From contig NC_011026.1 in NCBI RefSeq assembly GCF_000020525.1, positions 2,276,001-2,340,000 on the forward strand: a stretch of DNA of 64,000 bases, read 5' to 3'. The DNA is from Chloroherpeton thalassium ATCC 35110. Lineage in GTDB: Bacteria; Bacteroidota; Chlorobiia; Chlorobiales; Chloroherpetonaceae. A model generated the notes under the pieces. The model had not been told where the DNA came from. It did no database searches and was given only the letters and a program-made list of their open reading frames with translations. Position numbers and translations under genes: made by a program. This document shows, piece after piece, positions 2,543-16,333 of this stretch (its first letter is position 1; every line of letters begins with the position of its first letter).

Positions 2543-4963
2543 ATGTGTATTATAACCAACCTTAATAAAGCATTGAATATTATAATAAGATATATATTTC
2601 TGTCATTCATATTCAGCGTTATGTTTCTTTCAAGTTCATCAGCGAAGCAGTATGGGCTTGAAGATATTTCTGTTAGTAGCAACGTGATTGGTTATGAAGA
2701 GTATTTAAATGATATTTTAGCAAAAGAACGATACCTGGAATATCTCTCGTCAAATTTGAAAATTAGCGTTTCTGAGAAAGATGGAGGTTTTAGAGCTGAT
2801 TATGAGAGATATGAAGCCAAACATGAAAAATATAGTCCTATTCTAATTGGTAACTATGGTTATAAAGGTGGATCAGAGGGACGTTTTTTTAATTTTGAAG
2901 AGAAAAAAGAATATGATCGTTTTGTTGAGTATTTAAGGTTTTACAACATAAAAAGCCTGCTGAAAAGTTATAGAAATGCTATTATCTACAATTCCTCGTC
3001 GTTAGAAGTTCGTGAGTTGTTTGAGAGAGAGGTAAATAGTGCTTCCAGAAGTTATAAAGTGGGGGATTATGCTACATCACGGCTTCAATTCGAGGATATA
3101 TATGAAAGTTATAAGCCTTTTTATAAAGAAAACTTAGATGAAGTTTTATTTTTATGGGCTGAGTCTAGTTTTGGTTTACGTTACTTTTCAGAAGCAAAAG
3201 AACTATACTCTAAAATTATTTCTGAGTACTCAAGTTCTAATAGAAAAGAACTCGCAGCATATAGAGTGATTTTTATGGATTATGTATATGATGATGCAAA
3301 TCAGTTTCTTTCTGACTTTAATAAGTATAGAGCAATATTAGAAAAAGATAAGATATTATGGGATAAATCTCTTTTAATTGCTGCTACGATTGAGTATGGG
3401 AATAAGCATTATGCTAAAGCTATAAGTTTATTAGATCAAATATCTCAAGATGTTGATAATATAGTGTATGTAAATTTTATTCGAGGCGTGATTTTTATTG
3501 AACTTAATGATATATCTGAAGCAAAAAAATCATTTAAAGACGTTACTAATATATCTATTTGGCCATGGAGTAATAAAATTAATTCTTATTTGAAAAACAG
3601 TGCCTTCTTGCAGTTAGGTTATATTAACTATAAAGAAGGTAATGAGTACATGAGTAAATATGAAGATGCTTTTGCAAAAGGAGATACAACAGCCAGCGCA
3701 TTAAGTTTAAGGCAGGATGGGGTAAAGCGGTATGAGAATGCTGAAAATTTTTTTGCAAGTGTTTCAAAAGGTTATGCAGAATATAGAGTTGCAGAAATAG
3801 CAAAACTCTGGACCGTGTTTAAAGAAAGTGATTATAGAGAAAGTAAAAAAAGCCTAGATAAATATTTAAACCATATTAGCTTAGAAGACGATTTGTATCA
3901 GGCTGTGTATTTATCTGGTTATATGACTCAAAAAAACAAGCCTTCCAGTTTAGATGAGTCTCTAAAAGATTACTATTATGTTTATAATGGAATGGCAGCA
4001 AATGAATATCTAAAAAAATATTTTTCTTATGTAAGAACGCTTAAGGAATTAAAAAATAATGTAAGTGTTTTTGTTGAGCACTCGGTTTCTCCTGCAGAAA
4101 AAAAAGCAGCTTCTTCGTTATATGAATTATTGAATGGTATAAATGAATTGCTCATTTTTAATTACAAAGATATTGTTAATTCTGAAAAAACAGTATTTAC
4201 TGAAAGTAAAAAGAATGAATTACAGAATTATTTGTATCGTTTAGGAGAGACAAAAGATTCTTTGGCTACAAATGGGTTTCTTAATCTTGCTAATTTTGCT
4301 CAAAGTTCTCTTGGCGCATTGAATGGTCTTGTCAAGATGAATGTAGAGCCTATATCCGATGATATCAAATTATTTTTAGAGCACGCAACTGTGTTTTTGG
4401 AAAATGAAAAAAAAGATTATGAAAATTTAATAGAGGAATATAAAAAACAACTAAATACTGAATCAGAAGTCGTGTCGTATCAGTTAGATGTGGCAAAAAG
4501 TGTTTCTGTGAAAAATGAAAAAGAAGCGGTTTTAATAGATTATTATGTGAATAATGCTAACTTAATAAAAAATAGAAACAGTTCTTTACAGACTTTGTTT
4601 CATGAAAAGTCTTTTTATGAAGATAATCATAACATTGAGAATACAGGAACGACGGCACAGTACGCATTTAGCGGGATGATATATGAACAGATAACAGGAC
4701 GGCAAAAGCAAATTGATAATTACAGGAAAATAGTTGGTTTGTTAAAAAATGCAGCCCGAAAGAAAATAGAGCAATTAGAGTTTTATTTAAAAGAAATAGA
4801 TAAGGATTATTCCGTAGGGCCAGGGTTGAGAAAAGTAGAAGAGTTGCAGCAGGAGTTTGATAATATTTATCAGGATTTTCGTCGTGCTTTTTTTGAAGGA
4901 ACAGAGCATTTGAAGATGACAACGGGTGGCTCAGATAGTAAAGAGGATAAAACGCTACAATAG
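2543..4963 (+). CDS. Exported TPR-like protein, first gene of the TolQR-type cluster
   Basis: An 806-residue protein without a recognised family name. A hydrophobic segment at about residues 13-32 (IIIRYIFLSFIFSVMFLSS) followed by Ser/Ala looks like a signal peptide. The body is helical with TPR-like stretches (residues about 165-260, for example ATSRLQFEDIYESYKPF and EAKELYSKIISEY) and the last 200 residues are charged and probably coiled coil. Codons are very AT-rich. It lies 43 bp upstream of the ExbB-like gene on the same strand, so it probably encodes a periplasmic partner of that machine. The start is uncertain: there is no clear Shine-Dalgarno sequence and other in-frame starts are possible. 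Confidence 0.72.
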   Translation: MCIITNLNKALNIIIRYIFLSFIFSVMFLSSSSAKQYGLEDISVSSNVIGYEEYLNDILAKERYLEYLSSNLKISVSEKDGGFRADYERYEAKHEKYSPILIGNYGYKGGSEGRFFNFEEKKEYDRFVEYLRFYNIKSLLKSYRNAIIYNSSSLEVRELFEREVNSASRSYKVGDYATSRLQFEDIYESYKPFYKENLDEVLFLWAESSFGLRYFSEAKELYSKIISEYSSSNRKELAAYRVIFMDYVYDDANQFLSDFNKYRAILEKDKILWDKSLLIAATIEYGNKHYAKAISLLDQISQDVDNIVYVNFIRGVIFIELNDISEAKKSFKDVTNISIWPWSNKINSYLKNSAFLQLGYINYKEGNEYMSKYEDAFAKGDTTASALSLRQDGVKRYENAENFFASVSKGYAEYRVAEIAKLWTVFKESDYRESKKSLDKYLNHISLEDDLYQAVYLSGYMTQKNKPSSLDESLKDYYYVYNGMAANEYLKKYFSYVRTLKELKNNVSVFVEHSVSPAEKKAASSLYELLNGINELLIFNYKDIVNSEKTVFTESKKNELQNYLYRLGETKDSLATNGFLNLANFAQSSLGALNGLVKMNVEPISDDIKLFLEHATVFLENEKKDYENLIEEYKKQLNTESEVVSYQLDVAKSVSVKNEKEAVLIDYYVNNANLIKNRNSSLQTLFHEKSFYEDNHNIENTGTTAQYAFSGMIYEQITGRQKQIDNYRKIVGLLKNAARKKIEQLEFYLKEIDKDYSVGPGLRKVEELQQEFDNIYQDFRRAFFEGTEHLKMTTGGSDSKEDKTLQ

Positions 4964-5006
4964 CAGGATTTTGGTACTTAATTAAATTAATTGTTGGAGG
5001 TTCAAA

Positions 5007-5783
5007 ATGGCTAAAAAGAACAAATTATTTCTTTGGATTCTCGTTTTTCTATCCCAGGCAACGGGATATGGTTTCTATGTTTTTACGGGGACTCAGCCTC
5101 ATGGTACAGTCTTAGCTAATTTACATGAGGGCGGTGCGCTCGTTGGTGTATTGATAGGGGTACTATTAATGTTGTTTATCGTTGTAACTGAGCGCTCTAT
5201 TTCATACAAAAAAGCAGATGGAAAAGGAAATCTTGATCAATTATTAAAAGCTGTTAAGCAGGATATCGAAAGAGGCGCTATTAACGAAGCTATGCAAAAA
5301 TGCGAGCGCCATAATAGTTCTATTTCTTCATGCATTATGAGCGGCTTGGAGCGGTTTAGATCATTAGATGAAGTTGAACCTCGTTTCAATGCAAAAATAT
5401 CTGAAGTTCAGAAAGCAATTGATGAATCTGCAAACTTTGAGTCAGCGCAGTATGAAACGAATTTGACTCCAATTAAAACGATCGCTACTATTGCTACTTT
5501 GATTGGTTTGTTAGGTACAACTCTTGGTATGATTCGTGCATTTGCTGCTCTTGCTGAATCAGGTGGTGCAGCTGATGCTACTAAATTATCAGCTGCTATC
5601 TCGGAAGCTCTTTTTAACACAGCGTTTGGTTTAACCGGTGCTATTTTAGGTACGGTTGCATTCAACTACTTCCGTGCAAGAATCGATGAATTTACTTACG
5701 CAATTGATGAATCTGCTTTTGAAGTGATTCAAACATTGACAATCTCTCGCCGTAATTTGATTTCAGAAAGAGTTCAAGGTTAA
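5007..5783 (+). CDS. MotA/TolQ/ExbB family proton-channel protein
   Basis: A 258-residue inner-membrane protein with a good ribosome site (GGAGG, 8 bases before ATG). Membrane spans are visible at about residues 5-25, 45-65, 153-175 and 195-215. The long cytoplasmic loop between the second and third spans (VVTERSISYKK onward) and the pair TIATLIGLLGTTLGMIRAF plus SEALFNTAFGLTGAILGTVAF are the signature of TolQ/ExbB/MotA. Together with ExbD/TolR proteins it would form a proton-driven motor. There is an extra N-terminal hydrophobic segment compared with TolQ. Two ExbD-like genes follow directly. Whether it is closer to ExbB, TolQ or the gliding protein AglR cannot be decided by eye. Confidence 0.92.
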   Translation: MAKKNKLFLWILVFLSQATGYGFYVFTGTQPHGTVLANLHEGGALVGVLIGVLLMLFIVVTERSISYKKADGKGNLDQLLKAVKQDIERGAINEAMQKCERHNSSISSCIMSGLERFRSLDEVEPRFNAKISEVQKAIDESANFESAQYETNLTPIKTIATIATLIGLLGTTLGMIRAFAALAESGGAADATKLSAAISEALFNTAFGLTGAILGTVAFNYFRARIDEFTYAIDESAFEVIQTLTISRRNLISERVQG

Positions 5784-5806
5784 TTTATTTTTCTTTGAAA
5801 CGAATT

Positions 5807-5839
5807 TTTAAAGAGCCCTTTTTAAACGGGCTCTTTAAA
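5807..5839 (+). other. Intercistronic stem-loop between the ExbB-like and first ExbD-like gene
   Basis: A perfect 12-bp stem (arms 5807-5818 and 5828-5839, core AAAGAGCCC/GGGCTCTTT) with a 9-base loop fills the gap between the two genes. No T-run follows the 3' arm, so it is not a textbook terminator. It could be a partial terminator, an RNase-processing site or a 3'-stabilising element that makes more channel protein than ExbD protein. Confidence 0.7.
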
Positions 5840-5855
5840 GTAAAATATAACAGCT

Positions 5856-6350
5856 ATGAATTTTTTTGGATTTTTGATGCATGGAGGTGAGGACGGTGTT
5901 GACCTTGCACCCTTGGTTGACATTGCATTCTTGCTGTTAACCTTTTTTATGATGACCACTACTTTTAAAGTAACGGATGATGTTTCTTTGAAACTTCCTA
6001 CTTCAACGTCTGAAGAAAAAGAGCCTTCAAACAGGTATGTGACTGTTACGGTGGGAGATAGTGCCTCTGGAAGCAAGATTGTGTTTAACGCCGATCTTCA
6101 ACATGTTAGAATAAAGGCGTTAAGCTTTGTAGGCATTTCCGAACAAGACGCATTTAGAACAACCGGATTCGAGCTTAAGCAAGAGCAATTATTAGGTGTT
6201 CTAAATGTGGCTCGTCAAGTTGAGCCAGGGCAAACTATTGTATTGAAAGCAGATCGACATGCGAAGTTTGGCTTGGTGCAGGATATAATGGTCATAATGA
6301 AAAAAGTGAATTTTAAAGATGTTCTACTAATGACAGAGTTAGAGCGATAA
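5856..6350 (+). CDS. ExbD/TolR family protein (first copy)
   Basis: A 164-residue biopolymer-transport protein with a short cytoplasmic N-terminus (MNFFGFLMHGGEDG), one membrane span containing the key aspartate in PLVDIAFLLLTFFMM, and a periplasmic domain of about 120 residues. In the family the span aspartate is the proton-carrying residue of the ExbB-ExbD channel. It is distinct in sequence from the second copy, particularly in the periplasmic part (KLPTSTSEEKEPSNRY). Two ExbD-like subunits next to one ExbB-like protein recall AglQ/AglS with AglR of the Myxococcus gliding motor. Confidence 0.9.
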   Translation: MNFFGFLMHGGEDGVDLAPLVDIAFLLLTFFMMTTTFKVTDDVSLKLPTSTSEEKEPSNRYVTVTVGDSASGSKIVFNADLQHVRIKALSFVGISEQDAFRTTGFELKQEQLLGVLNVARQVEPGQTIVLKADRHAKFGLVQDIMVIMKKVNFKDVLLMTELER

Positions 6351-6431
6351 GTTTTGTGAAATCACATTTGTGTATCAAATGATGTCATAAACTTTTGCTG
6401 GGCTATTAATCACACTTTAATAAGTTAGAGA

Positions 6432-7007
6432 ATGAGTTTATTAGAAAAGTCTCATGGTACGAAAGAGCAAATGCGTTTGGGAAAGACAAATGCGCAGGCT
6501 CGTCATGTGAAAAAGTTTAAAGAAAAATCTGACGAATCCTCACATGTGGATTTAGCTCCTTTGGTAGACATTGCATTTCTCTTGCTAACATTTTTTATGT
6601 TAACAACAACATTTGCTAAGCCAAATGTCATGGAAATGGGCTTGCCAGAAGATTCTAAAGGTGGAAAAACAGTTGATGTTAAGCCAGATAATGTGCTCAC
6701 GATAAGGATTAGCAAAACTGGTAAAGCTTACTTAAACCAAGGGCTTGATAAACCAAAAAATTTGGAATTTGACAAGATAAAAGATGAAATATCAAAATTT
6801 GTCAAATCTAACCCGTACATCATCACAACAATAAAAGTTGATAAAGACGCTGAATATTATGTGATGGTTGATATTGTTGATGAAGTATATAATGCCGGTG
6901 TCAGAAAGTTTGCATTGGCTGATATGAATGACAAAGAAAAAGCTGAAATTGATGAGATTGAAGCTGGTAATTCTGATACAGTCCAGAATAAGGATTCTGA
7001 AAAATAA
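6432..7007 (+). CDS. ExbD/TolR family protein (second copy)
   Basis: A 191-residue relative of the preceding protein with a longer basic N-terminus (about 45 residues, rich in Lys) before the same span motif PLVDIAFLLLTFFML. The periplasmic domain is followed by an acidic C-terminal tail (EKAEIDEIEAGNSD). The conserved span Asp is present, so it should be able to take part in proton conduction. The 81-bp gap before it holds only a weak hairpin. It ends 15 bp before the AgmX/PglI-like gene, which has an AAGGAG ribosome site in that gap. The two copies may form a heteromeric stator or serve alternative partners. Confidence 0.9.
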   Translation: MSLLEKSHGTKEQMRLGKTNAQARHVKKFKEKSDESSHVDLAPLVDIAFLLLTFFMLTTTFAKPNVMEMGLPEDSKGGKTVDVKPDNVLTIRISKTGKAYLNQGLDKPKNLEFDKIKDEISKFVKSNPYIITTIKVDKDAEYYVMVDIVDEVYNAGVRKFALADMNDKEKAEIDEIEAGNSDTVQNKDSEK

Positions 7008-7022
7008 TAAGGAGCATTTATA

Positions 7023-8039
7023 ATGAAAACCAAATCATTAGGGCTTAGCTCAGCACCTGAAGCAACTATTTGGTGGGCTGAGAAGCCTTTTGCATACCGT
7101 ATTAGGGATGATTATAGAAAACGAATGATTGTGGGCTATGTAATAGGGCTTGCAATTATTTTGTTAATTAATGCGGCTTATTTTATTTCTATTGCTTTAG
7201 AAGAAAAAGAAGACGTTGAACAAATTGTACAGGTGAAGATTGCGCCAGACTTGATTCCACCACCACCTCCAATTGAAGAGACTACTGGTGAGACAGGAGA
7301 AGGTGAAGGCGGCAGTGGTTCTGGCGGAGATATGTCTTCTTCAGAGGGTAGAAGTGCAGTTGCAAGTGCAGTTGCTGCAGGTGTCCAAGCTGGTATTGCT
7401 GAAGCATTATCTTCGGGTATTTTTGGTGAAGGTGGCGGTATTCCTACTGCAACAGAAGGGGCGCTTGGTACAGGTGAAGGTATTTTAAGTAATATTGGTG
7501 CCGGAGGTGGATTAAGAGGATTAAGCGGTTCAGGTTTGGGAACAGGATCTGCCGGATTTGGGTCTGGTGGTGACGTTGGATTTGGTGGTACAGGTGGTGG
7601 TATTGGTGGTAGCAAAGGAATTGGTGTTGGCGGAAAGGGCACTGGTTTAGGCGGAAGTGGCCGTAAAGGAATCGGTGTTGGCTCAAGAATGGGTAGTTTG
7701 ACTGTGCGAGCAGGCCTCAAAAGTATGAAAATTGGAGGCAGTAGTGGTCGTACGGCAGATGAAATATCACGAGTAATAAATGCTAACTCAGCCGCAATTT
7801 TAGATTGCTATAGTCAAGCAAAAGCAGTCGATGCCTCTTTAAGCGGCGGGCAGTTAGTTGTTAGCTTAATTATTCGACCTGATGGTGGTGTTGCTACGAC
7901 AAGAATCGTTCGCTCTTCTGTTAAGAATGTTCCTTTAGAAAAGTGTATAGAAACAAAGTTGCGTCGTTTTAGATTTTCTGCAGTAAGTGTTCAGGAGATG
8001 CAAAAAGTTGATGTGCCCTACGATTTTTCAGACCAATAA
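7023..8039 (+). CDS. Single-span Gly-rich energy-transducer-like protein with AgmX/PglI-type C-terminal domain
   Basis: A 338-residue TonB-like protein. It has a cytoplasmic N-terminus of about 37 residues, one membrane span at about residues 38-60 (IVGYVIGLAIILLINAAYF), a short proline run (IPPPPPPIEE), a Gly/Ser-rich linker from about residue 85 to 235, and a C-terminal domain of about 100 residues. That domain has paired cysteines C262 and C308 and the pattern AAILDCYSQA ... LVVSLIIRPDGGV ... LEKCIETKLRRFRF, as in AgmX/PglI C-terminal domains of Myxococcus gliding proteins. It would span the periplasm and pass motion or force from the ExbB/ExbD channel to the outer membrane. The low-complexity linker is the longest Gly-rich tract in the window. 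Confidence 0.82.
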   Translation: MKTKSLGLSSAPEATIWWAEKPFAYRIRDDYRKRMIVGYVIGLAIILLINAAYFISIALEEKEDVEQIVQVKIAPDLIPPPPPIEETTGETGEGEGGSGSGGDMSSSEGRSAVASAVAAGVQAGIAEALSSGIFGEGGGIPTATEGALGTGEGILSNIGAGGGLRGLSGSGLGTGSAGFGSGGDVGFGGTGGGIGGSKGIGVGGKGTGLGGSGRKGIGVGSRMGSLTVRAGLKSMKIGGSSGRTADEISRVINANSAAILDCYSQAKAVDASLSGGQLVVSLIIRPDGGVATTRIVRSSVKNVPLEKCIETKLRRFRFSAVSVQEMQKVDVPYDFSDQ

Positions 8040-8072
8040 TTATATAAAATATTTATAATACTGATGCTTTGT

Positions 8073-8115
8073 TTTAGCATATGGACAGAACTCGATATTC
8101 TGTTCATATGCTAAA
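8073..8115 (+). other. Long intercistronic stem-loop before the giant TPR gene
   Basis: Arms 8073-8090 and 8098-8115 pair over 18 positions with one G-T wobble (TTTAGCATATGGACAGAA against TTCTGTTCATATGCTAAA), with a 7-base loop. It lies 28 bases upstream of the next ATG and has no U-run after it. It is a second non-terminator-like hairpin in the same cluster, suggesting mRNA processing or translational control of the giant gene. Confidence 0.75.
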
Positions 8116-8142
8116 TTTCAAGCAAAAGTTTTTAGGAAAATT

Positions 8143-11100
8143 ATGACGTATATGGCTCGAAATAATAAGGCTAGTATGTTAAAAAATATTAAGCTTATTC
8201 TATTGTTATTTATTTGTTTTATTAATTCAAATTTTGTCTTTGCTTTAGAAAAAGATAAAAATAATGAGCCTGATACGTTAAAAACATCTAATGATTTAGA
8301 TGATAAAATTTCACGTTTGTCAAGGTTAATACCTGATGACGCGCTGTCAGCCAGGACAGGTGATCCAAAAACAGATTACATTTTTTCAAACTACACAGTA
8401 GATCAAATAAAATTAATGATCGATGAATACACGAAGAAATTAGAGAAAACAAAACAAAAAAAGAAAATCTTATCAAGTAAAAGTATTGAAGTTGGTGAAA
8501 AGTTTATAAAAGTCTTTCCCGAAAGCAAGGTTATAGATGAAATTGTAATAAGACAGGCAGACTTACTATATAATAAGGCTATAGAGGAGTTTGATGAAAA
8601 ATATTTAGCCTATGCTAATGAAAGTTTAAAATATGCAGAGATACTTGATAAATATGATAAAGGTGAAACTTCTGAAAAACCAACAGAACCGATAGAACCT
8701 GATTATGGTTTTGATAAGGTCATAACTTTATATGATTTGATTATTAATAATATGCCTGAAAGTCCGTATGTTGTTGATGCATATTACGGTAAGGCATATA
8801 TTTATGGTGAAAATCTAAATAAAAAAGATGACGCCGTGGCTATTCTACGTGAAATAACACGTAAGTATCCAGATAGTCGCTATACAATTGATTCCTATAT
8901 GTTAATCGCCGAGTATTTATTCGGTGCACCATCAAGACAACAACCAAGAAAAACAATAGAATCAATCCCATATTATAAAAAAGTTCTCGATCTTGTTTCA
9001 TCAAAGGGGATTACATCAAAATATTATGATCAATCTTTATATAAGTTAGGATGGGCTTATTTTAGAATAGGAGGAATTGATAAAAAGAATTATGAAGAAG
9101 CAATTGCTTACTTTACAAGTTTGTGTGATGATTTAGAACATGCAGAAGAAATTTTTTCCGGTCAAGCATTACCTGACTATGTCGATACTCGACTAAGGGA
9201 TGAATCTTTGGAATATATAGCTACTAGTTTTGTATCTATTCAGAAAAAAATAGATGATACAAAATCAGGTGTCGATAGAGTTGAAACGTACTTTAAAAAA
9301 TTGAGCCCTCCAAGACGATACGAGCCAATCGTATACGAAAAACTCGGTGAAGCCTATGAAAACTTATTAGAAGAGCCGAAAAAAATTATTGAGGTATATA
9401 AAACCTTATTAAGGCGTTTCCCTGATTATGAAAAAGCCCCACTTATAGCTCAAAAAATAATTACTCAGTTAGATCAAGCATCTTTAGAGGAAGGTCGTTC
9501 TGATAGGGAAGAAATTGAAAAACAATTATACGAAGAAAGAAAGCGGTTGTTTTATAAGTATGGGAGAACAAGTGATTGGTTTGCAAAATTAAAAAATAAG
9601 ATAGAAGCTCAAAGTAGAGGAGATACATTAGCTTATTCTGAAAGAAGTATTGCAACAAATAGCTATGATCCGAAAATATTAGATAGGATAGATAATATTT
9701 CAAGGCAGGCTCTATTTAATAATATTGTGTATGGCGTTAGTCGTGCTCAATTATTAGACGGTTCTGTTGATCCACCACTTGGAATTGTTGTTGAAAGAAA
9801 TAATCAAAAAGCGATTGAGCTATATGAACAAGTTGTGAAAGATGTTGATAATTATGTTCAATTTTTTTCAAGATATGACTCAGCCGCTTATTATGCGTTA
9901 TTCCAGAAATCATTTATTTTGGATACAAAGCTGTCTAGAAAGAAAGATGCTCTAGAAGGATACTTAGATATAGCTAAAAATTTTGCCTGGGATTATTACA
10001 GAAAGCCAGCTACAATTAACGCATATATTATTGCTACAGAAATTGCAAAGGAGCAAAAGTTAGCACAATATACGCCAGGAATTGATACGGTGGCAAAATT
10101 TTCAGGTCAACCAGATTCATTGAAACCTGATGAGAAAAAATATATAGATGTTTTAGAAACACTGGTACGTCTTTTCCCTCATGACTCGTTGGCTGTTCCC
10201 TCATTACAAGTTCTTTCTACAATATATTTGGCAAAAGGATATACAAAAGAGTATAAAGAAATAAACTCACGTTTACTGCAATATTATCCAATTCAAAATA
10301 TTGATGCTGGAGTGTTAGTTAGCTTGTGTGATTTTGCTTTATTTGAAGAAAAAGATTATGTCAAAAGTGAGCAATTAGCAAAAGCTATCTATTATGGGCC
10401 GAGTCAAGGTGCTGATCCAAAAGATAAAAAGCGAAGAGACTTTGCATATAAAAGAATTGGTGAATCGATCTCACAACAAGCTGAGTATTATAAAAAAAGA
10501 GAAAATTATATAGCAGCAGCAAGACAGTATGAAAGGGCTGCGAGGACTGTTCCTGAATGGAAAGATGCAAATCAAGCAGCTGTTCTTGCTTCAGATAATT
10601 ATGTTTTAGGCGGGAGAACAGAAGATGCTGTTAGGATCAATAATTATTTGATCAATAAAGCATCGGACGATCCTTCTTACAAGGTTAAAGCTTATAAGGG
10701 AATCGTTCTTGCTTACGAGCGTTCTGAAAATTTTGATAGTTTATCAACTGCTTTAGAAAATATTGCTGATGTTTTTCCTGATTCAACTCAATTGGCTGAA
10801 GAGAGTTTAAAGAAGTCTATCAAAGCAAGTATGAGAGGTGAGAATTGGAAAAACGCGATAAGGGTAACGGATAAGTATCTTTCAAGATTTGCTGACTCAA
10901 AAGATGCTCCTGATATTGCATTCAATAAAATTGATTTGAATGTGAAATTAGGAAATGAAGAAGGTGTTTTTGACGCATATGGTGAATTTGCTGATAAATA
11001 TGTAGATAAGCCACTTAGTGTAAAAGCTTATTTTAGAAGAGGTGAATATTTAGAAAAGAAAAAAAATATAGAAGGTGCGAAAGGCGAGTTTGAAAAAGCT

Positions 11101-14100
11101 ATTGAAAGAAGCGAGAAATTAAAAGGTCAGGCAGATGTTTGGGCTAGTGAAAGTTTATATAAATTAACTGATTACTTGATTGAAGATTATAAGGCAACGC
11201 CGGTAAAAATGGTGATTGCCCCATCTGCATTTCAAGAGTCAAAAAAGACTAGTGACTTAAAAAGTGCAAAAAAGAAGAAAGCTTCAGTCCAAAAAGATAA
11301 TGCGTTAAGCGGGCAGAGTAAAGATATCGCTTATGACAATAATCAAAAACTTCAGCTAAAAGATAAAATAGGTAATTATACCATTAAGCTTATCAATCTA
11401 GGCGGCTACAGAGTAATTGATGCTTATTATGTTCCTGGCTTTTTATCGGAAGATTTAGCTAATAATTATTCTAATTTACCTGATACGCTTTATAAAGCGA
11501 TAAATAATAGAGGGGAAAAAATTCTTGATTTCAAGAGGGATATAAATATTGCTCAGGCAAATGTGGATGCCAGTCAAGGATACCGAATTGCAGGTAATGA
11601 TTATGCAACAGCCTACAAAAATTTAACTAAAGCTAAAGAAGAAGTCTTGGCTGAACAAAAAGGCGCGTCATCTATAGACACTACACAAGTAGAAGGTGAT
11701 TCTTTACAATTCGCTAGCATAGACACGACATCGCTTGCTAATTTAAACTTTGTTATTGATAGCTTAATGACAGCTACCGGAAACGTCCCTGACGAACTTA
11801 AATTGGCTGCTTTAAATGGAACCATAGAAAAAACCAAATCAAAAATATCGGAAATGTATTACAAGTCCGGTTTGATGAAAGAAAAAAGTGTTTATGTATG
11901 GTTGAATTCAGTTGTTCCAGATGAAGTAAAAAATAAAGAAATTAAAAAAATCCAGAAGATCAGGTTAAAAAATCCTTTATTTATTGGCGACATTGCTGAG
12001 TTGCTTCAACTATCCAAAATAGCAAGTTCTTATGTACAGCCATCAGTAGTCGATGGGATAAAAACTTATGATGCTGGTATTAAAAGATCAAGAGAATTAG
12101 GGCTAAATAATGAGTATATCAAAAAATCAAATGATGCTATTGTGGGTCTAGCTCCGAAAGCAGCAGAAAGAATTGATTCTTTGGCTCGGGTTTCGGGGAT
12201 TTTATTTGACAAATTAGATAAAGAATATAGAGAGAAGCTCGCTTCTATAACAAATTTTAAAACGGATGATCAGATTGATCTCACCCTTAAAATAGAGAAG
12301 ATGAAGCTAGTTATTACTAATTATAATAACTTAGCTACATCAGCAGTTCTTGAGTATTATAATGCATATCAGTTGTTAAAAGATATTGGAGCGCCCCAGG
12401 AAAAACTCACTGCACTTGCAGACACAGCCACAAAATTTATATATGAGTTGGGTGATAGAAGCATGTCAAGAAATGAAAATTTTGATAGATATGCTAAGTC
12501 TTTCACTGATATCTTTAATAGTGATTTTAATAAATACTGGTATAGTGATGCAGAAGGTCCTTATAGGGATCTTGGGAAGTTGTGGAAAATAGCAGCGCAA
12601 AATGTGTTGGGACAAGTTGTTGATTTTGTTGACGAGTTCGGTTTCCAAAGTCAGTATACACAGCGAGCGCTAAGACGATTAGTCAATAGTGATCCTCGTA
12701 AGTTTTCAATTGGGCAGGAAAGTAAACAAACGCTTTCGATTGTAACTGATTCTGAATGGAAATACGCAAAAGACGCGCCAGACTATGAGTGGTATTCAAA
12801 AAATTATGATGATTCAAAATGGCAGTTTGCAGTTGTTAATAGGGACGCCGCTAATTTGTATTACATACAAAAATTAGAGACCAAGGTTCCCGTTCTCGAT
12901 ACGGTGTCAGTAGATACAATTGCGGTAAGAGTTGATACAACGATGAAGGATACGCTTATCTTTAAAAAAGCGGTTGTATCCGTTTCCCCAATATGGTTCA
13001 AATCTAAAAGCTTAGTTCAGCCACCAGCTTCATTTACACCTGATACCGCTGGATATTATAGCCCTGATATGAACGCTGTTCCAAGTAATGCTATTCCTAA
13101 TGAGAGTATTATTGATGGCACAGAAAAGTATAATTTAGACGATAGCGAAATTAGAAAAGAAAAAATGCCATCGGAAACTGAAGGTGTAAAGAGCGAAGAA
13201 GGAACATCAACCGAGGAAGTTGTGCCATCGGAAACTGAAGGTGTAAAGAGTGAAGGTGAAGGAACATCAACCGAGGAAGTTGTGCCATCGGAAACTGAAG
13301 GTGTAAAGAGTGAAGGTGAAGGAACATCAACCGAGGAAGTTGTGCCATCGGAAACTGAAGGTGTAAAGAGTGAAGGTGAAGGAACATCAACCGAGGAAGT
13401 TGTGCCATCGGAAACTGAAGGTGTAAAGAGTGAAGGTGAAGGAACATCAACCGAGGAAGTTGTGCCATCGGAAACTGAAGGTGTAAAGAGTGAAGGTGAG
13501 GCAACATCAACCGAGGAAGTTGTGCCATCGGAAACTGAAGGTGTAAAGAGTGAAGGTGAAGGAACATCAACCGAGGAAGTTGTGCCATCGGAAACTGAAG
13601 GTGTAAAGAGTGAAGGTGAAGGAACATCAACCGAGGAAGTTGTGCCATCGGAAACTGAAGGTGTAAAGAGTGAAGGTGAGGCAACATCAACCGAGGAAGT
13701 TGTGCCATCGGAAACTGAAGGTGTAAAGAGTGAAGGTGAAGGAACATCAACCGAGGAAGTTGTGCCATCGGAAACTAAAGGTGTAAAGAGTGAAGGTGAA
13801 GCAGCACCAACAGAAAAGAGCGATTCTACAGTTGTTCCATCTCCAAATTTATGGGATGCACCACCTCCAGATTACTTAAATCCAGGAGGATCGTTATACA
13901 AAAGAAATGATGCTATAGAAGAGGCTCATCTAAGCATATACCGGAAATGGTATTCAAAAGTATTGGTGCAGGATTCAATATCAGCAAGTGTTGATTCTAA
14001 TTATGATGAAAATGTAGCAAAAAGCACTCTATCATCAAGTAGTAGTGACTCACTTTCAGTGAGCTTATATAGTGAGCCCCTGGTATCATCGCAAGAGTTG

Positions 14101-14652
14101 ATAAAAGAACCTGACTCTCTTACCATTGCAGCATGGATTTCCGCTGGTGGTTATAAAGATAGCTTGGGTGTTTGGATGGATAGCACTGGGATGGTTTTAT
14201 TTAATGAGGCTGCGCTATTGCCACCACCTGAGCCGGATCCAGAGCATGTATATTTTAGAAAAGAATTTGAATTTGATGGCGCTATAGACATCGCACAGTT
14301 AGTGTTATCAACGGATATTCCTGCTGATTCAATGGAAATATATATCAATGGCGATCCAATTGAAGTTGTTTATGAAAGTGTATCAGAGCAAATTCTGAGC
14401 TTTGTTGGTATTCCATTAGATAAACAGTTCACGTTAGATATTTCTAAGTTTGTAAAAGATGGGAAAAATGTAATTGCAGTAAAAGTACCTGGTACTATTC
14501 AAGGTGCAGGATTAAAAGCAATGGTAAATATCTTGTACTTTGGTAAATTAACTGATGAACAAATAAAGGTTTTGGTAAAGCAAATTAGTACGCAACGGCG
14601 AGAGGCAAGAAAAGCTTTAGAAGAACCTGCAGTGGAAGAATCTACTCAGTAA
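8143..14652 (+). CDS. Giant exported TPR protein (2169 residues) with a tandem-repeat linker and a split jelly-roll-like C-terminus
   Basis: Not a named family. A hydrophobic segment at about residues 15-34 (IKLILLLFICFINSNFVFA) marks a signal peptide; starts at residue 1, 4 or 12 are possible and AGGAAA precedes the first ATG. Residues about 60-1100 are TPR-like helical repeats with motifs such as AVAILREITRKYPDS and EGYLDIAKNF. Residues about 1100-1530 are helical and charged. At 1537-1561 comes a Trp-rich stretch with YDDSKW, then eleven 20-residue Pro/Glu/Ser repeats (1676-1894). At 2034-2140 VYFRKEFEF, EIYINGDPI and DGKNVIAVKV resemble the second half of a galactose-binding-like jelly roll. 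It is probably a periplasmic or outer-membrane scaffold of the TolQR-like machine; long TPR proteins also accompany the Agl motor in Myxococcus. Confidence 0.8.
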   Translation: MTYMARNNKASMLKNIKLILLLFICFINSNFVFALEKDKNNEPDTLKTSNDLDDKISRLSRLIPDDALSARTGDPKTDYIFSNYTVDQIKLMIDEYTKKLEKTKQKKKILSSKSIEVGEKFIKVFPESKVIDEIVIRQADLLYNKAIEEFDEKYLAYANESLKYAEILDKYDKGETSEKPTEPIEPDYGFDKVITLYDLIINNMPESPYVVDAYYGKAYIYGENLNKKDDAVAILREITRKYPDSRYTIDSYMLIAEYLFGAPSRQQPRKTIESIPYYKKVLDLVSSKGITSKYYDQSLYKLGWAYFRIGGIDKKNYEEAIAYFTSLCDDLEHAEEIFSGQALPDYVDTRLRDESLEYIATSFVSIQKKIDDTKSGVDRVETYFKKLSPPRRYEPIVYEKLGEAYENLLEEPKKIIEVYKTLLRRFPDYEKAPLIAQKIITQLDQASLEEGRSDREEIEKQLYEERKRLFYKYGRTSDWFAKLKNKIEAQSRGDTLAYSERSIATNSYDPKILDRIDNISRQALFNNIVYGVSRAQLLDGSVDPPLGIVVERNNQKAIELYEQVVKDVDNYVQFFSRYDSAAYYALFQKSFILDTKLSRKKDALEGYLDIAKNFAWDYYRKPATINAYIIATEIAKEQKLAQYTPGIDTVAKFSGQPDSLKPDEKKYIDVLETLVRLFPHDSLAVPSLQVLSTIYLAKGYTKEYKEINSRLLQYYPIQNIDAGVLVSLCDFALFEEKDYVKSEQLAKAIYYGPSQGADPKDKKRRDFAYKRIGESISQQAEYYKKRENYIAAARQYERAARTVPEWKDANQAAVLASDNYVLGGRTEDAVRINNYLINKASDDPSYKVKAYKGIVLAYERSENFDSLSTALENIADVFPDSTQLAEESLKKSIKASMRGENWKNAIRVTDKYLSRFADSKDAPDIAFNKIDLNVKLGNEEGVFDAYGEFADKYVDKPLSVKAYFRRGEYLEKKKNIEGAKGEFEKAIERSEKLKGQADVWASESLYKLTDYLIEDYKATPVKMVIAPSAFQESKKTSDLKSAKKKKASVQKDNALSGQSKDIAYDNNQKLQLKDKIGNYTIKLINLGGYRVIDAYYVPGFLSEDLANNYSNLPDTLYKAINNRGEKILDFKRDINIAQANVDASQGYRIAGNDYATAYKNLTKAKEEVLAEQKGASSIDTTQVEGDSLQFASIDTTSLANLNFVIDSLMTATGNVPDELKLAALNGTIEKTKSKISEMYYKSGLMKEKSVYVWLNSVVPDEVKNKEIKKIQKIRLKNPLFIGDIAELLQLSKIASSYVQPSVVDGIKTYDAGIKRSRELGLNNEYIKKSNDAIVGLAPKAAERIDSLARVSGILFDKLDKEYREKLASITNFKTDDQIDLTLKIEKMKLVITNYNNLATSAVLEYYNAYQLLKDIGAPQEKLTALADTATKFIYELGDRSMSRNENFDRYAKSFTDIFNSDFNKYWYSDAEGPYRDLGKLWKIAAQNVLGQVVDFVDEFGFQSQYTQRALRRLVNSDPRKFSIGQESKQTLSIVTDSEWKYAKDAPDYEWYSKNYDDSKWQFAVVNRDAANLYYIQKLETKVPVLDTVSVDTIAVRVDTTMKDTLIFKKAVVSVSPIWFKSKSLVQPPASFTPDTAGYYSPDMNAVPSNAIPNESIIDGTEKYNLDDSEIRKEKMPSETEGVKSEEGTSTEEVVPSETEGVKSEGEGTSTEEVVPSETEGVKSEGEGTSTEEVVPSETEGVKSEGEGTSTEEVVPSETEGVKSEGEGTSTEEVVPSETEGVKSEGEATSTEEVVPSETEGVKSEGEGTSTEEVVPSETEGVKSEGEGTSTEEVVPSETEGVKSEGEATSTEEVVPSETEGVKSEGEGTSTEEVVPSETKGVKSEGEAAPTEKSDSTVVPSPNLWDAPPPDYLNPGGSLYKRNDAIEEAHLSIYRKWYSKVLVQDSISASVDSNYDENVAKSTLSSSSSDSLSVSLYSEPLVSSQELIKEPDSLTIAAWISAGGYKDSLGVWMDSTGMVLFNEAALLPPPEPDPEHVYFRKEFEFDGAIDIAQLVLSTDIPADSMEIYINGDPIEVVYESVSEQILSFVGIPLDKQFTLDISKFVKDGKNVIAVKVPGTIQGAGLKAMVNILYFGKLTDEQIKVLVKQISTQRREARKALEEPAVEESTQ
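13168..13824 (+). repeat. Eleven in-frame tandem repeats of about 60 bp inside the giant TPR gene
   Basis: The unit encodes PSETEGVKSEGEGTSTEEVV. Unit 1 is 57 bp (13168-13224), units 2-10 are exactly 60 bp (13225-13764), and unit 11 (13765-13824) is degenerate. Units 6 and 9 share two linked changes (GAG for GAA and GCA for GGA, the latter Gly to Ala), giving a 180-bp higher-order period. All copies keep the frame. The region is acidic and likely disordered, and copy number should vary by slippage or recombination. Confidence 0.97.
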
Positions 14653-14662
14653 ATAAAAATAT

Positions 14663-15043
14663 ATGAGAAATTTACTTAATTCAGGCGTTTTAATAATTTT
14701 GATGGTTTGTGGGGTTTGCTTTTCAACTGAATTAAAAGCTCAAGATAAAAATGATCCCATGGGCGTAACTGGCACGACTGTTAATTCTGATAAAAGCAAA
14801 GTTTTGCAAGATATTGAATTAAATACGGTGAGTATTAAATATAAAGTTCAAACTCCACGAGTAAAATTTACAATGGAGCGTTTGCCTGTAGATATCAAAA
14901 TTAATTACGAGAAACTAGAAAGTTTAAAAAATGTAATTAAACAAGAGCCAAAAAGACTCATTTTTATGAGCAAAAAATTTGAAAAGCCTGTTGAATTTTC
15001 CCCTTCAAGTGTGGTAGAGCACACAGTTTCAGGATCACAATAG
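14663..15043 (+). CDS. Small exported protein, last gene of the TolQR-type cluster
   Basis: A 126-residue protein with a clear signal peptide (NSGVLIILMVCGVCFSTELKAQ; cleavage probably after residue 26, before DKND). I recognise no family in the mature part, which is rich in Lys and Val and looks like alternating beta strands (VSIKYKVQTPRVKFTMERLPVDI). It starts 10 bp after the giant TPR gene, so it is almost certainly co-transcribed, and a strong terminator follows about 50 bp after its stop. It is likely a periplasmic accessory factor. AT-rich like the rest of the cluster. Confidence 0.75.
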   Translation: MRNLLNSGVLIILMVCGVCFSTELKAQDKNDPMGVTGTTVNSDKSKVLQDIELNTVSIKYKVQTPRVKFTMERLPVDIKINYEKLESLKNVIKQEPKRLIFMSKKFEKPVEFSPSSVVEHTVSGSQ

Positions 15044-15090
15044 CGGCCAGCGCAAACGCATTCAAGTGCATATATCATTTGAAATTTTAA

Positions 15091-15140
15091 AAAAAGTCAA
15101 GCTCGTATTATAAAGTATGATGCTTGACTTTTTATTTTAT
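15091..15140 (+). terminator. Rho-independent terminator closing the TolQR-type cluster
   Basis: Arms AAAAAGTCAAGC (15091-15102) and GCTTGACTTTTT (15122-15133) pair perfectly, and the 3' arm runs into a T-rich stretch. It lies 48 bp after the stop of the small exported protein and supports reading 2543-15043 as one transcription block. Confidence 0.85.
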
Positions 15141-15154
15141 ATAACTAAATAAAT

Positions 15155-16333
15155 ATGTATAAGCTTAATTTTCTAATATTTTTATTTTTATTCGGATTAA
15201 ATGAGAATGCTTTGTCTCAAATAATCATTGAGAAATGGTCAAGCAAACAAGAGGATAAAGATCAAGAATATAAAAAAATACGTGAAGGTATAAATTATAT
15301 ATATAATTTGGAATATGATAAAGCAGAAAAAATTTTTGATACAGTAAAAAAAAGTAATCACGAAAACCCAATTGGATTTTTCTTTGATGGAATGGTTTTA
15401 TGGTGGAAAATAATGATTAATATTGAAGATGTTCAATATGATGAATTATTTAAAGAAAAAATGAGTAATGTAATAGATATCTGTGATAGACTTATAGAAA
15501 AAGAATCCGAAAATTCGACAGCGATTTTTTATAAAGCTGCAGCATTGGGTTTCAGAGGTCGGCTGCTTGCCAATAGAGGTGAATGGTTGAATGCAGCAAT
15601 TGATGGTAAAAATGCACTTCCTTTAGTTGGGCAATTATCAAAAATAGAAGAAGAAAATAATGACGTAGAGTTCGGACTTGGCTTATATAACTATTATGCG
15701 GAAGCAATTCCTGAAAAATATCCGATTTTAAAGCCAATTACTATTTTTTTTCCAAAGGGTAATAAGCAAAAGGCAATAAAGCAACTAAACAATGCTGTGA
15801 AAAATGCGAAATATGCTGATATAGAAGCATTGTATTTTTTGATGCAAATATATTATATGTATGAATATGACTATAAAAAAGCATTAGAATATGCAACTAT
15901 TTTATATAATAAGTTTCCAAAGAACATCCTTTTTAAGGCATATATCGGCAGAATTAATTCTAAGCTTGGAAACACTTTAAAGACTTCTTTAATATACAAT
16001 GAGCTTATAGAATTAGTTGAAAACTCTGATATTAGTTTATATAAAAGATATTTAGATGAGGCAAATTACTATATAGGATATTCGTTTATGAAAAATGGAG
16101 AATCAAATAAAGCATTGGCTTACTATGGGAAAGTCTGCCAGAATAAAAATGATAGTGATTTTAGTAACAAGTATTTTTATATGTCTTTATATAATATGGG
16201 AAATATATATATATTGAAAAACGATTTTGAAAAAGCACGTAATTGTTTTATTGAATTAATAAATATGAATGATTGTTGTGATTTGCATAAAAAAGCACAA
16301 AAAAAACTTAAACAAATAGAAAATAGATTTTAA
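15155..16333 (+). CDS. Exported TPR protein of unknown function
   Basis: A 392-residue protein with an N-terminal hydrophobic segment (KLNFLIFLFLFGLNENALSQ), probably a signal peptide. The rest is helical with several TPR-like units, for example INYIYNLEYDKAEKIFD near residue 48, KKALEYATILYNKFPKN near residue 245 and NKALAYYGKVCQNK near residue 315. No enzymatic motif is seen. Its stop is 1 bp before the start of the NamZ-like gene, so the two are co-translated or co-transcribed. Codon use is as AT-rich as in the preceding cluster. It could scaffold an envelope complex or bind the muramidase. Confidence 0.72.
   Translation: MYKLNFLIFLFLFGLNENALSQIIIEKWSSKQEDKDQEYKKIREGINYIYNLEYDKAEKIFDTVKKSNHENPIGFFFDGMVLWWKIMINIEDVQYDELFKEKMSNVIDICDRLIEKESENSTAIFYKAAALGFRGRLLANRGEWLNAAIDGKNALPLVGQLSKIEEENNDVEFGLGLYNYYAEAIPEKYPILKPITIFFPKGNKQKAIKQLNNAVKNAKYADIEALYFLMQIYYMYEYDYKKALEYATILYNKFPKNILFKAYIGRINSKLGNTLKTSLIYNELIELVENSDISLYKRYLDEANYYIGYSFMKNGESNKALAYYGKVCQNKNDSDFSNKYFYMSLYNMGNIYILKNDFEKARNCFIELINMNDCCDLHKKAQKKLKQIENRF

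Follow-up and report, generated by a model that had tools for sequence, protein, structure and literature searches.

We found seven open reading frames at positions 2543-15043 of a stretch of DNA from Chloroherpeton thalassium ATCC 35110 (GCF_000020525.1, NC_011026.1, positions 2,276,001-2,340,000 of the forward strand). The whole stretch analysed, 64,000 nt, is referred to as the window, and coordinates are positions in the window unless a contig is named. All seven genes are on the + strand, with intergenic gaps of 10-103 bp, and are preceded by trx and trxR (Table 1). A hairpin that was missed by a simple consensus scan and revealed by folding closes the unit. Beyond it is another gene for an exported TPR protein (15155-16333) that is syntenic in some relatives. 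The 205-aa antisense ORF at 13151-13768 (- strand) is spurious, produced by the 60-bp tandem repeat of the giant gene.

Table 1. Features of the locus, in positions of the window
Feature	Position	Strand	Basis
TPR1, exported TPR protein, 806 aa, probable GltC counterpart	2543..4963	+	Pfam, gene position, profile match
ExbB/TolQ-family channel subunit, 258 aa, paralog of TonB-operon ExbB	5007..5783	+	Pfam MotA_ExbB 2.3e-26; tree
ExbD a, 164 aa, span Asp kept	5856..6350	+	Pfam ExbD 1.9e-21; tree
ExbD b, 191 aa, span Asp kept	6432..7007	+	Pfam ExbD 2.7e-26; tree
Single-span GltG/GltJ-like protein, 338 aa, Pro/Gly-rich arm, Cys-paired AgmX/PglI tail, without FHA	7023..8039	+	NCBIfam NF033768, profile match
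TPRg, giant exported TPR protein, 2169 aa, GltD relative (N-terminal half), split C-terminal jelly roll	8143..14652	+	Profile comparison, structure model
60-bp tandem repeat, 10.6 copies, in the low-complexity linker of TPRg that splits the jelly roll	13166..13801	+	Repeat analysis
sml, small exported protein, 126 aa, conserved beside TPRg	14663..15043	+	Synteny
Terminator-like hairpin with U tract, closes the unit	about 15089-15135	+	Folding, z -4.5

A preliminary description, made from the sequence, had listed these seven same-strand genes and the closing terminator. It had also named one ExbB/TolQ-like and two ExbD/TolR-like proteins with the span Asp, a single-span protein with an AgmX/PglI-type Cys-paired C-terminus, and a 2169-residue exported TPR protein. 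All of these were found as described. In both ExbDs the span Asp lies within LVDIAFLLLTFFM. TPRg has its TPRs in the N-terminal half, and a hydrophobic N-terminal segment of the protein resembles a signal peptide.

The C-terminus of the 338-aa protein resembles the tail of GltG. The protein has one span (33-51) and a pair of cysteines, Cys262 and Cys308. It scored 58.6 bits with the NCBIfam model of the AgmX/PglI tail (NF033768; cut-off 40). The score with the TonB C-terminal model was 20 bits, under the cut-off of 27.1, and by this measure the protein does not carry a TonB C-terminal domain. In a profile comparison it aligned with the GltG tail (5.8e-16), and the Cys pair was aligned. The GltG equivalog model gave 37.5 of 650 bits, far under its cut-off, and Pfam reported no FHA domain in the protein. 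From these comparisons, it is well supported that the C-terminus corresponds to the Cys-paired domain of GltG/GltJ. Related end domains are found in two other proteins of this genome. An 837-aa exported, VIT/VWA-looking protein (L037:6309-8822, - strand; C1 near 2116317) has a Cys-paired AgmX-type end domain that scores over the cut-off, and a 499-aa, outer-membrane-barrel-like protein (L038:5578-7077, - strand; C1 near 1679649) has an AgmX/TonB-like end domain without the Cys pair.

The locus had been described as distinct from both Tol-Pal and TonB loci, lacking TolB, Pal and a TonB receptor, and this was borne out. The TolQ equivalog model gave 85.5 of 221 bits for the channel and the TolR model gave 51 and 57 of 127 bits for the two ExbDs; that is, the three proteins fall short of Tol-Pal membership. 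No TolB, Pal or receptor is encoded among the genes of the locus or those adjoining it. A complete ExbB-ExbD-ExbD-TonB operon sits elsewhere in the genome. The channel of that operon and that of the locus are the only two MotA/ExbB-family proteins in the whole 3,293,456-bp single-contig genome.

We found that the giant protein is related to GltD. TPRg aligned with GltD over 850 columns (2.1e-22), as a GltD homolog should, and the same profile comparison gave no alignment with GltC or GltE. Controls matter here because TPR families resemble one another. An unrelated TPR protein reached 3.1e-10 with TPRg, and some of the control proteins are encoded near ExbD or TonB-like genes and are thus not clean controls. 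We rejected TPR similarity as the sole proof of kinship, since unrelated TPR proteins reach this value with TPRg and score as well as GltC does against TPR1.

Gene position provides further evidence. We scanned 84,980 genomes with a TPRg profile and obtained 135 pattern matches, with 17 loci confirmed. Eleven of these loci are in genomes from the Chloroherpeton side and from a second class of Bacteroidota, one is in a metagenome-assembled genome (MAG) without assignment, and five are remote; among named relatives, a Chloroherpetonaceae MAG is the nearest. The remote loci are in Deltaproteobacteria SKW273, a Bdellovibrio-like MAG, a Kofleriaceae MAG and two Myxococcales MAGs. All five matches are at the GltD position of GltC-GltD-GltE-GltG clusters of Myxococcales or Bdellovibrio-like genomes. 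A TPR1-like gene precedes the match in each, and a GltE-like or FHA-AgmX gene then follows on most of the contigs. With NCBIfam models, the neighboring GltC scored 576 bits (over the cut-off; L078) and the GltE and GltG neighbors scored under theirs. The sequence comparisons thus leave it well supported that the N-terminal half of TPRg is a relative of GltD.

TPR1 fits GltC by position and less firmly by sequence. In the second class it precedes TPRg, as the GltC-like gene precedes GltD in glt clusters. Its best profile match was GltC (1.5e-10), followed by GltD (9.9e-9), several generic TPR proteins scored as well as GltC, and the GltC model gave no match. Given these control scores, we regard kinship to GltD and to the GltG tail as well supported and that of TPR1 to GltC as moderately supported.

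Less can be said about sml. A small sml-like gene is found upstream of ExbB-ExbD-ExbD in a Bdellovibrio-like genome (L105), a weak match from a small search space. We considered sml as a piece of GltD and rejected this, since the weak match spans signal-peptide letters only. The structure model of sml (pLDDT 60, pTM 0.20) was too poor for a fold search.

The C-terminus of TPRg may bind glycan. Weak rhamnosidase-type matches lie on both sides of the linker, which is of low complexity in relatives too. In a structure model of the C-terminus of a relative's TPRg, two beta parts of fair confidence flank a linker that is disordered. Against the PDB, this model best matched alpha-L-rhamnosidase and enzymes of GH2 type (best E 8.2e-5), with TM-scores that are low because much of the modelled query is disordered. 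The model suggests a sugar-binding-like, split jelly roll. Separately, the C-terminal helical region of TPRg (roughly residues 1220-1490) has paralogs that stand free in relatives and in this genome (L026:1375-2289; L024, L025, L031-L034).

The three motor genes have a different history. In the ExbB tree, the locus channel and its orthologs joined the TonB-operon ExbB of Chlorobiales (support 100/99), and the channel of the second class joined the Agl-type channels of glt-bearing genomes (support 100/98). Forcing the locus group together with the Agl-type group was rejected (AU test, p-AU 0.0011), with the Agl-type sequences named by context (one channel and two ExbDs in glt-bearing genomes) and not by comparison with M. 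xanthus sequences. The ExbD tree paired each protein with its positional counterpart in the TonB operon (ExbD a with the first copy, ExbD b with the second), some of the joins being supported only in the 80s. The three proteins are 47, 38 and 36% identical to the TonB-operon copies in the same genome, and the gene order is identical.

By these trees the trio is a TonB-type ExbB-ExbD motor, very likely a paralog of the TonB cassette of its own lineage. The trees and the AU test rule out that it is AglRQS, and because it groups with the TonB cassette we classify the locus as Glt-related and not as a member of the Agl-Glt systems. The preliminary description had likened the set to the Agl/Glt gliding genes of Myxococcus. 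That likeness stands for the TPR and AgmX-tail proteins, which relate to GltD, GltG and probably GltC, and fails for the trio. It had also stated that channel proteins placed firmly inside Tol or Ton systems, with missing partners found elsewhere, would speak against its reading. The trio does fall with the TonB cassette, but no Ton partner is missing and the locus is therefore not a broken Ton system.

We surveyed the distribution of the locus in 98 genomes of the class, 12 from the Chloroherpeton side and 86 from one family that we take to be Chlorobiaceae based on the names of relatives and the size of the group. TPRg was present in 11 of the 12 and in none of the 86. The twelfth genome (G093, 81% complete) has a paralogous region only. 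Orthologs of the locus ExbB (65-89% identity) follow the same split, and genomes of the large family have at best a TonB-type paralog (about 45%). Gene order is identical in every relative whose contig spans the locus. Chlorobiaceae are non-motile, Chloroherpeton glides and flexes, and Thermochlorobacter is considered to do likewise (review, PMC9318685); for gliding of Thermochlorobacter, a literature check gave nothing beyond this review. The comparison of gliding with non-gliding relatives that the preliminary description had proposed, made here within the class, thus found no copy of the cluster in any of the 86 genomes from the reportedly non-motile family.

TPRg is also present in the second class of Bacteroidota, in four of four genomes examined. 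Three of these (L062, L063, L065) have the order dnaE-trx-trxR-TPR1-TPRg-sml-ExbB-ExbD-ExbD-GltG-like; the contig of the fourth stops inside TPRg. The dnaE-trx-trxR site is shared by both classes, which suggests, from gene order, a single ancestral locus that was lost in Chlorobiaceae. Since an Agl-type motor accompanies the same chassis at this site in the second class, the motor was probably exchanged. The simplest account is that a TonB cassette duplicated as a block probably replaced the Agl-type motor. In the same three genomes, the first ExbD has Asn where the proton-carrying span Asp is expected.

The TonB descent of the trio raises the notion that the locus is a second TonB-type energiser for receptor-dependent uptake, that its long TPR proteins are accessories, and that the resemblance to Glt is shallow. 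In other classes of Bacteroidota, genes for TPR proteins of about 1000 aa do lie near ExbB-ExbD-TonB-like genes, most clearly in L161. However, the tail of the 338-aa protein matches AgmX/GltG over the cut-off and TonB under it, the genome has its separate complete TonB operon, the second class pairs the same chassis with an Agl-type motor, and the remote relatives of TPRg occupy GltD positions. We consider this notion very improbable. The arrangement in L159, L160 and L161, where the TPR gene is followed by a gene of about 530 aa with ExbB, ExbD or TonB-like genes nearby, is possibly a related pairing of motor and TPR proteins. We regard it as quite probable, based on homology and gene order, that the C. 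thalassium locus encodes a Glt-related complex.

What such a complex does is a separate question. The locus makes a good gliding-motor candidate for the Chloroherpeton lineage, and gliding is plausible. In favor of it are the distribution of the locus, the resemblance to the Glt family, and the failure to find in this genome a GldL, a PilT or any MotA/ExbB-family channel other than that of the TonB operon. We put gliding as the output at a little short of an even chance. It is the leading output but unproven because the distribution of SprA is the same as that of the locus, the pattern reflects a single split, and Glt core complexes are also known from bacteria that do not glide (PMC3169522). 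The genome encodes a full-length SprA, a protein of type IX secretion (T9SS; 1369 bits, C1:1644895-1651629; L149). All 12 genomes of the Chloroherpeton side have SprA and none of the 86 others does, and therefore the correlation between locus and gliding is confounded. The pattern of presence and absence rests on one family-level evolutionary split.

It is possible that the type IX secretion apparatus does the gliding, and that the locus does other work or powers this apparatus in place of GldLM. The distribution of SprA fits this, and so does the result for GldL: none was found in this genome by a search that was positive in 36 of 148 genomes. Set against this, there is no T9SS gene in or adjoining the locus. 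No GldM-type partner was matched, in a search that lacked a working positive control and whose negative outcome we give no weight, and a divergent GldLM may have escaped. We consider this explanation unlikely. PilT was also not found in the genome.

It is also possible that the same Glt-related complex serves the envelope or a surface polymer and not motility, moving or exporting glycan as the Nfs relatives do in Myxococcus sporulation, or maintaining the outer membrane. The Glt cores of non-gliding bacteria are consistent with this, as is the sugar-binding-like fold at the end of the giant protein; PMC3858216 describes the Agl motor as also working with Nfs proteins on spore-coat polysaccharide. 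The absence of the locus from an entire non-motile family and its presence in a gliding lineage argue the other way, again by one split only. We view an envelope role as a real possibility that falls below even odds.

We favor a Glt-related, trans-envelope, force-transducing complex in which the Agl-type motor was swapped for a TonB-type cassette, with gliding or flexing as the most likely output (probability about 0.6). Based on the genes, their order and homology, the ancestry of the motor and the distribution of the locus, we infer how this complex might assemble, the path of force, the binding of glycan and the output. Protons would cross the ExbB/ExbD channel via the span aspartates, setting the ExbD pair in motion. 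The GltG-like protein would relay this motion over the periplasm via its Pro/Gly-rich arm and Cys-paired end domain, and the GltC-like TPR1 and GltD-like TPRg would form a scaffold toward the outer membrane. The jelly-roll end of TPRg could hold a glycan (peptidoglycan, LPS or a surface polymer), and the most likely result would be gliding or flexing. The full version, in which a captured TonB-type cassette drives a Glt chassis and the lectin-like end of TPRg grips glycan to produce both gliding and flexing, is offered tentatively.

To our knowledge, the gliding mechanism of Chloroherpeton is unexplained. If it works as proposed, the locus could explain movement in this group, and it provides a named set of genes for an old question of motility. 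Luciano et al. (2011, PMC3169522) reported the Glt core complex from Proteobacteria and Fibrobacter alone, and we found no description of it in Chlorobi in the literature searched. The locus extends the Glt family to two classes of Bacteroidota. The probable natural swap of proton motors on the same transducer makes it directly testable whether the channel or the GltG/GltD chassis sets specificity.

Like the GldLM/T9SS motor of Bacteroidota, the proposed complex would be a proton-driven envelope motor tied to gliding, and C. thalassium has SprA; the motor family is different, GldL was not found in the genome, and the locus has no Gld proteins. With the Agl-Glt core of Myxococcus and relatives (AglRQS, GltC/D/E/G) it shares, in one cluster, GltD-like and GltG-tail proteins, a probable GltC, one ExbB and two ExbDs, and exported TPR proteins. 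Unlike that core, its trio is of TonB descent, its GltG-like protein lacks FHA, none of the seven genes encodes a GltE-like protein, and TPRg is roughly double GltD in length and carries an extra jelly-roll end. The ExbB-ExbD-ExbD-TonB operon of Chlorobiales contains the closest kin of the trio in the same order; the locus has an AgmX-tail protein in place of TonB, plus the long exported TPR proteins and the small exported protein. The chassis of the second class shares TPR1, TPRg with its jelly-roll end, sml, the GltG-like protein and the dnaE-trx-trxR site. It differs in that its motor genes are Agl-type and placed after sml, and in the Asn of its first ExbD.
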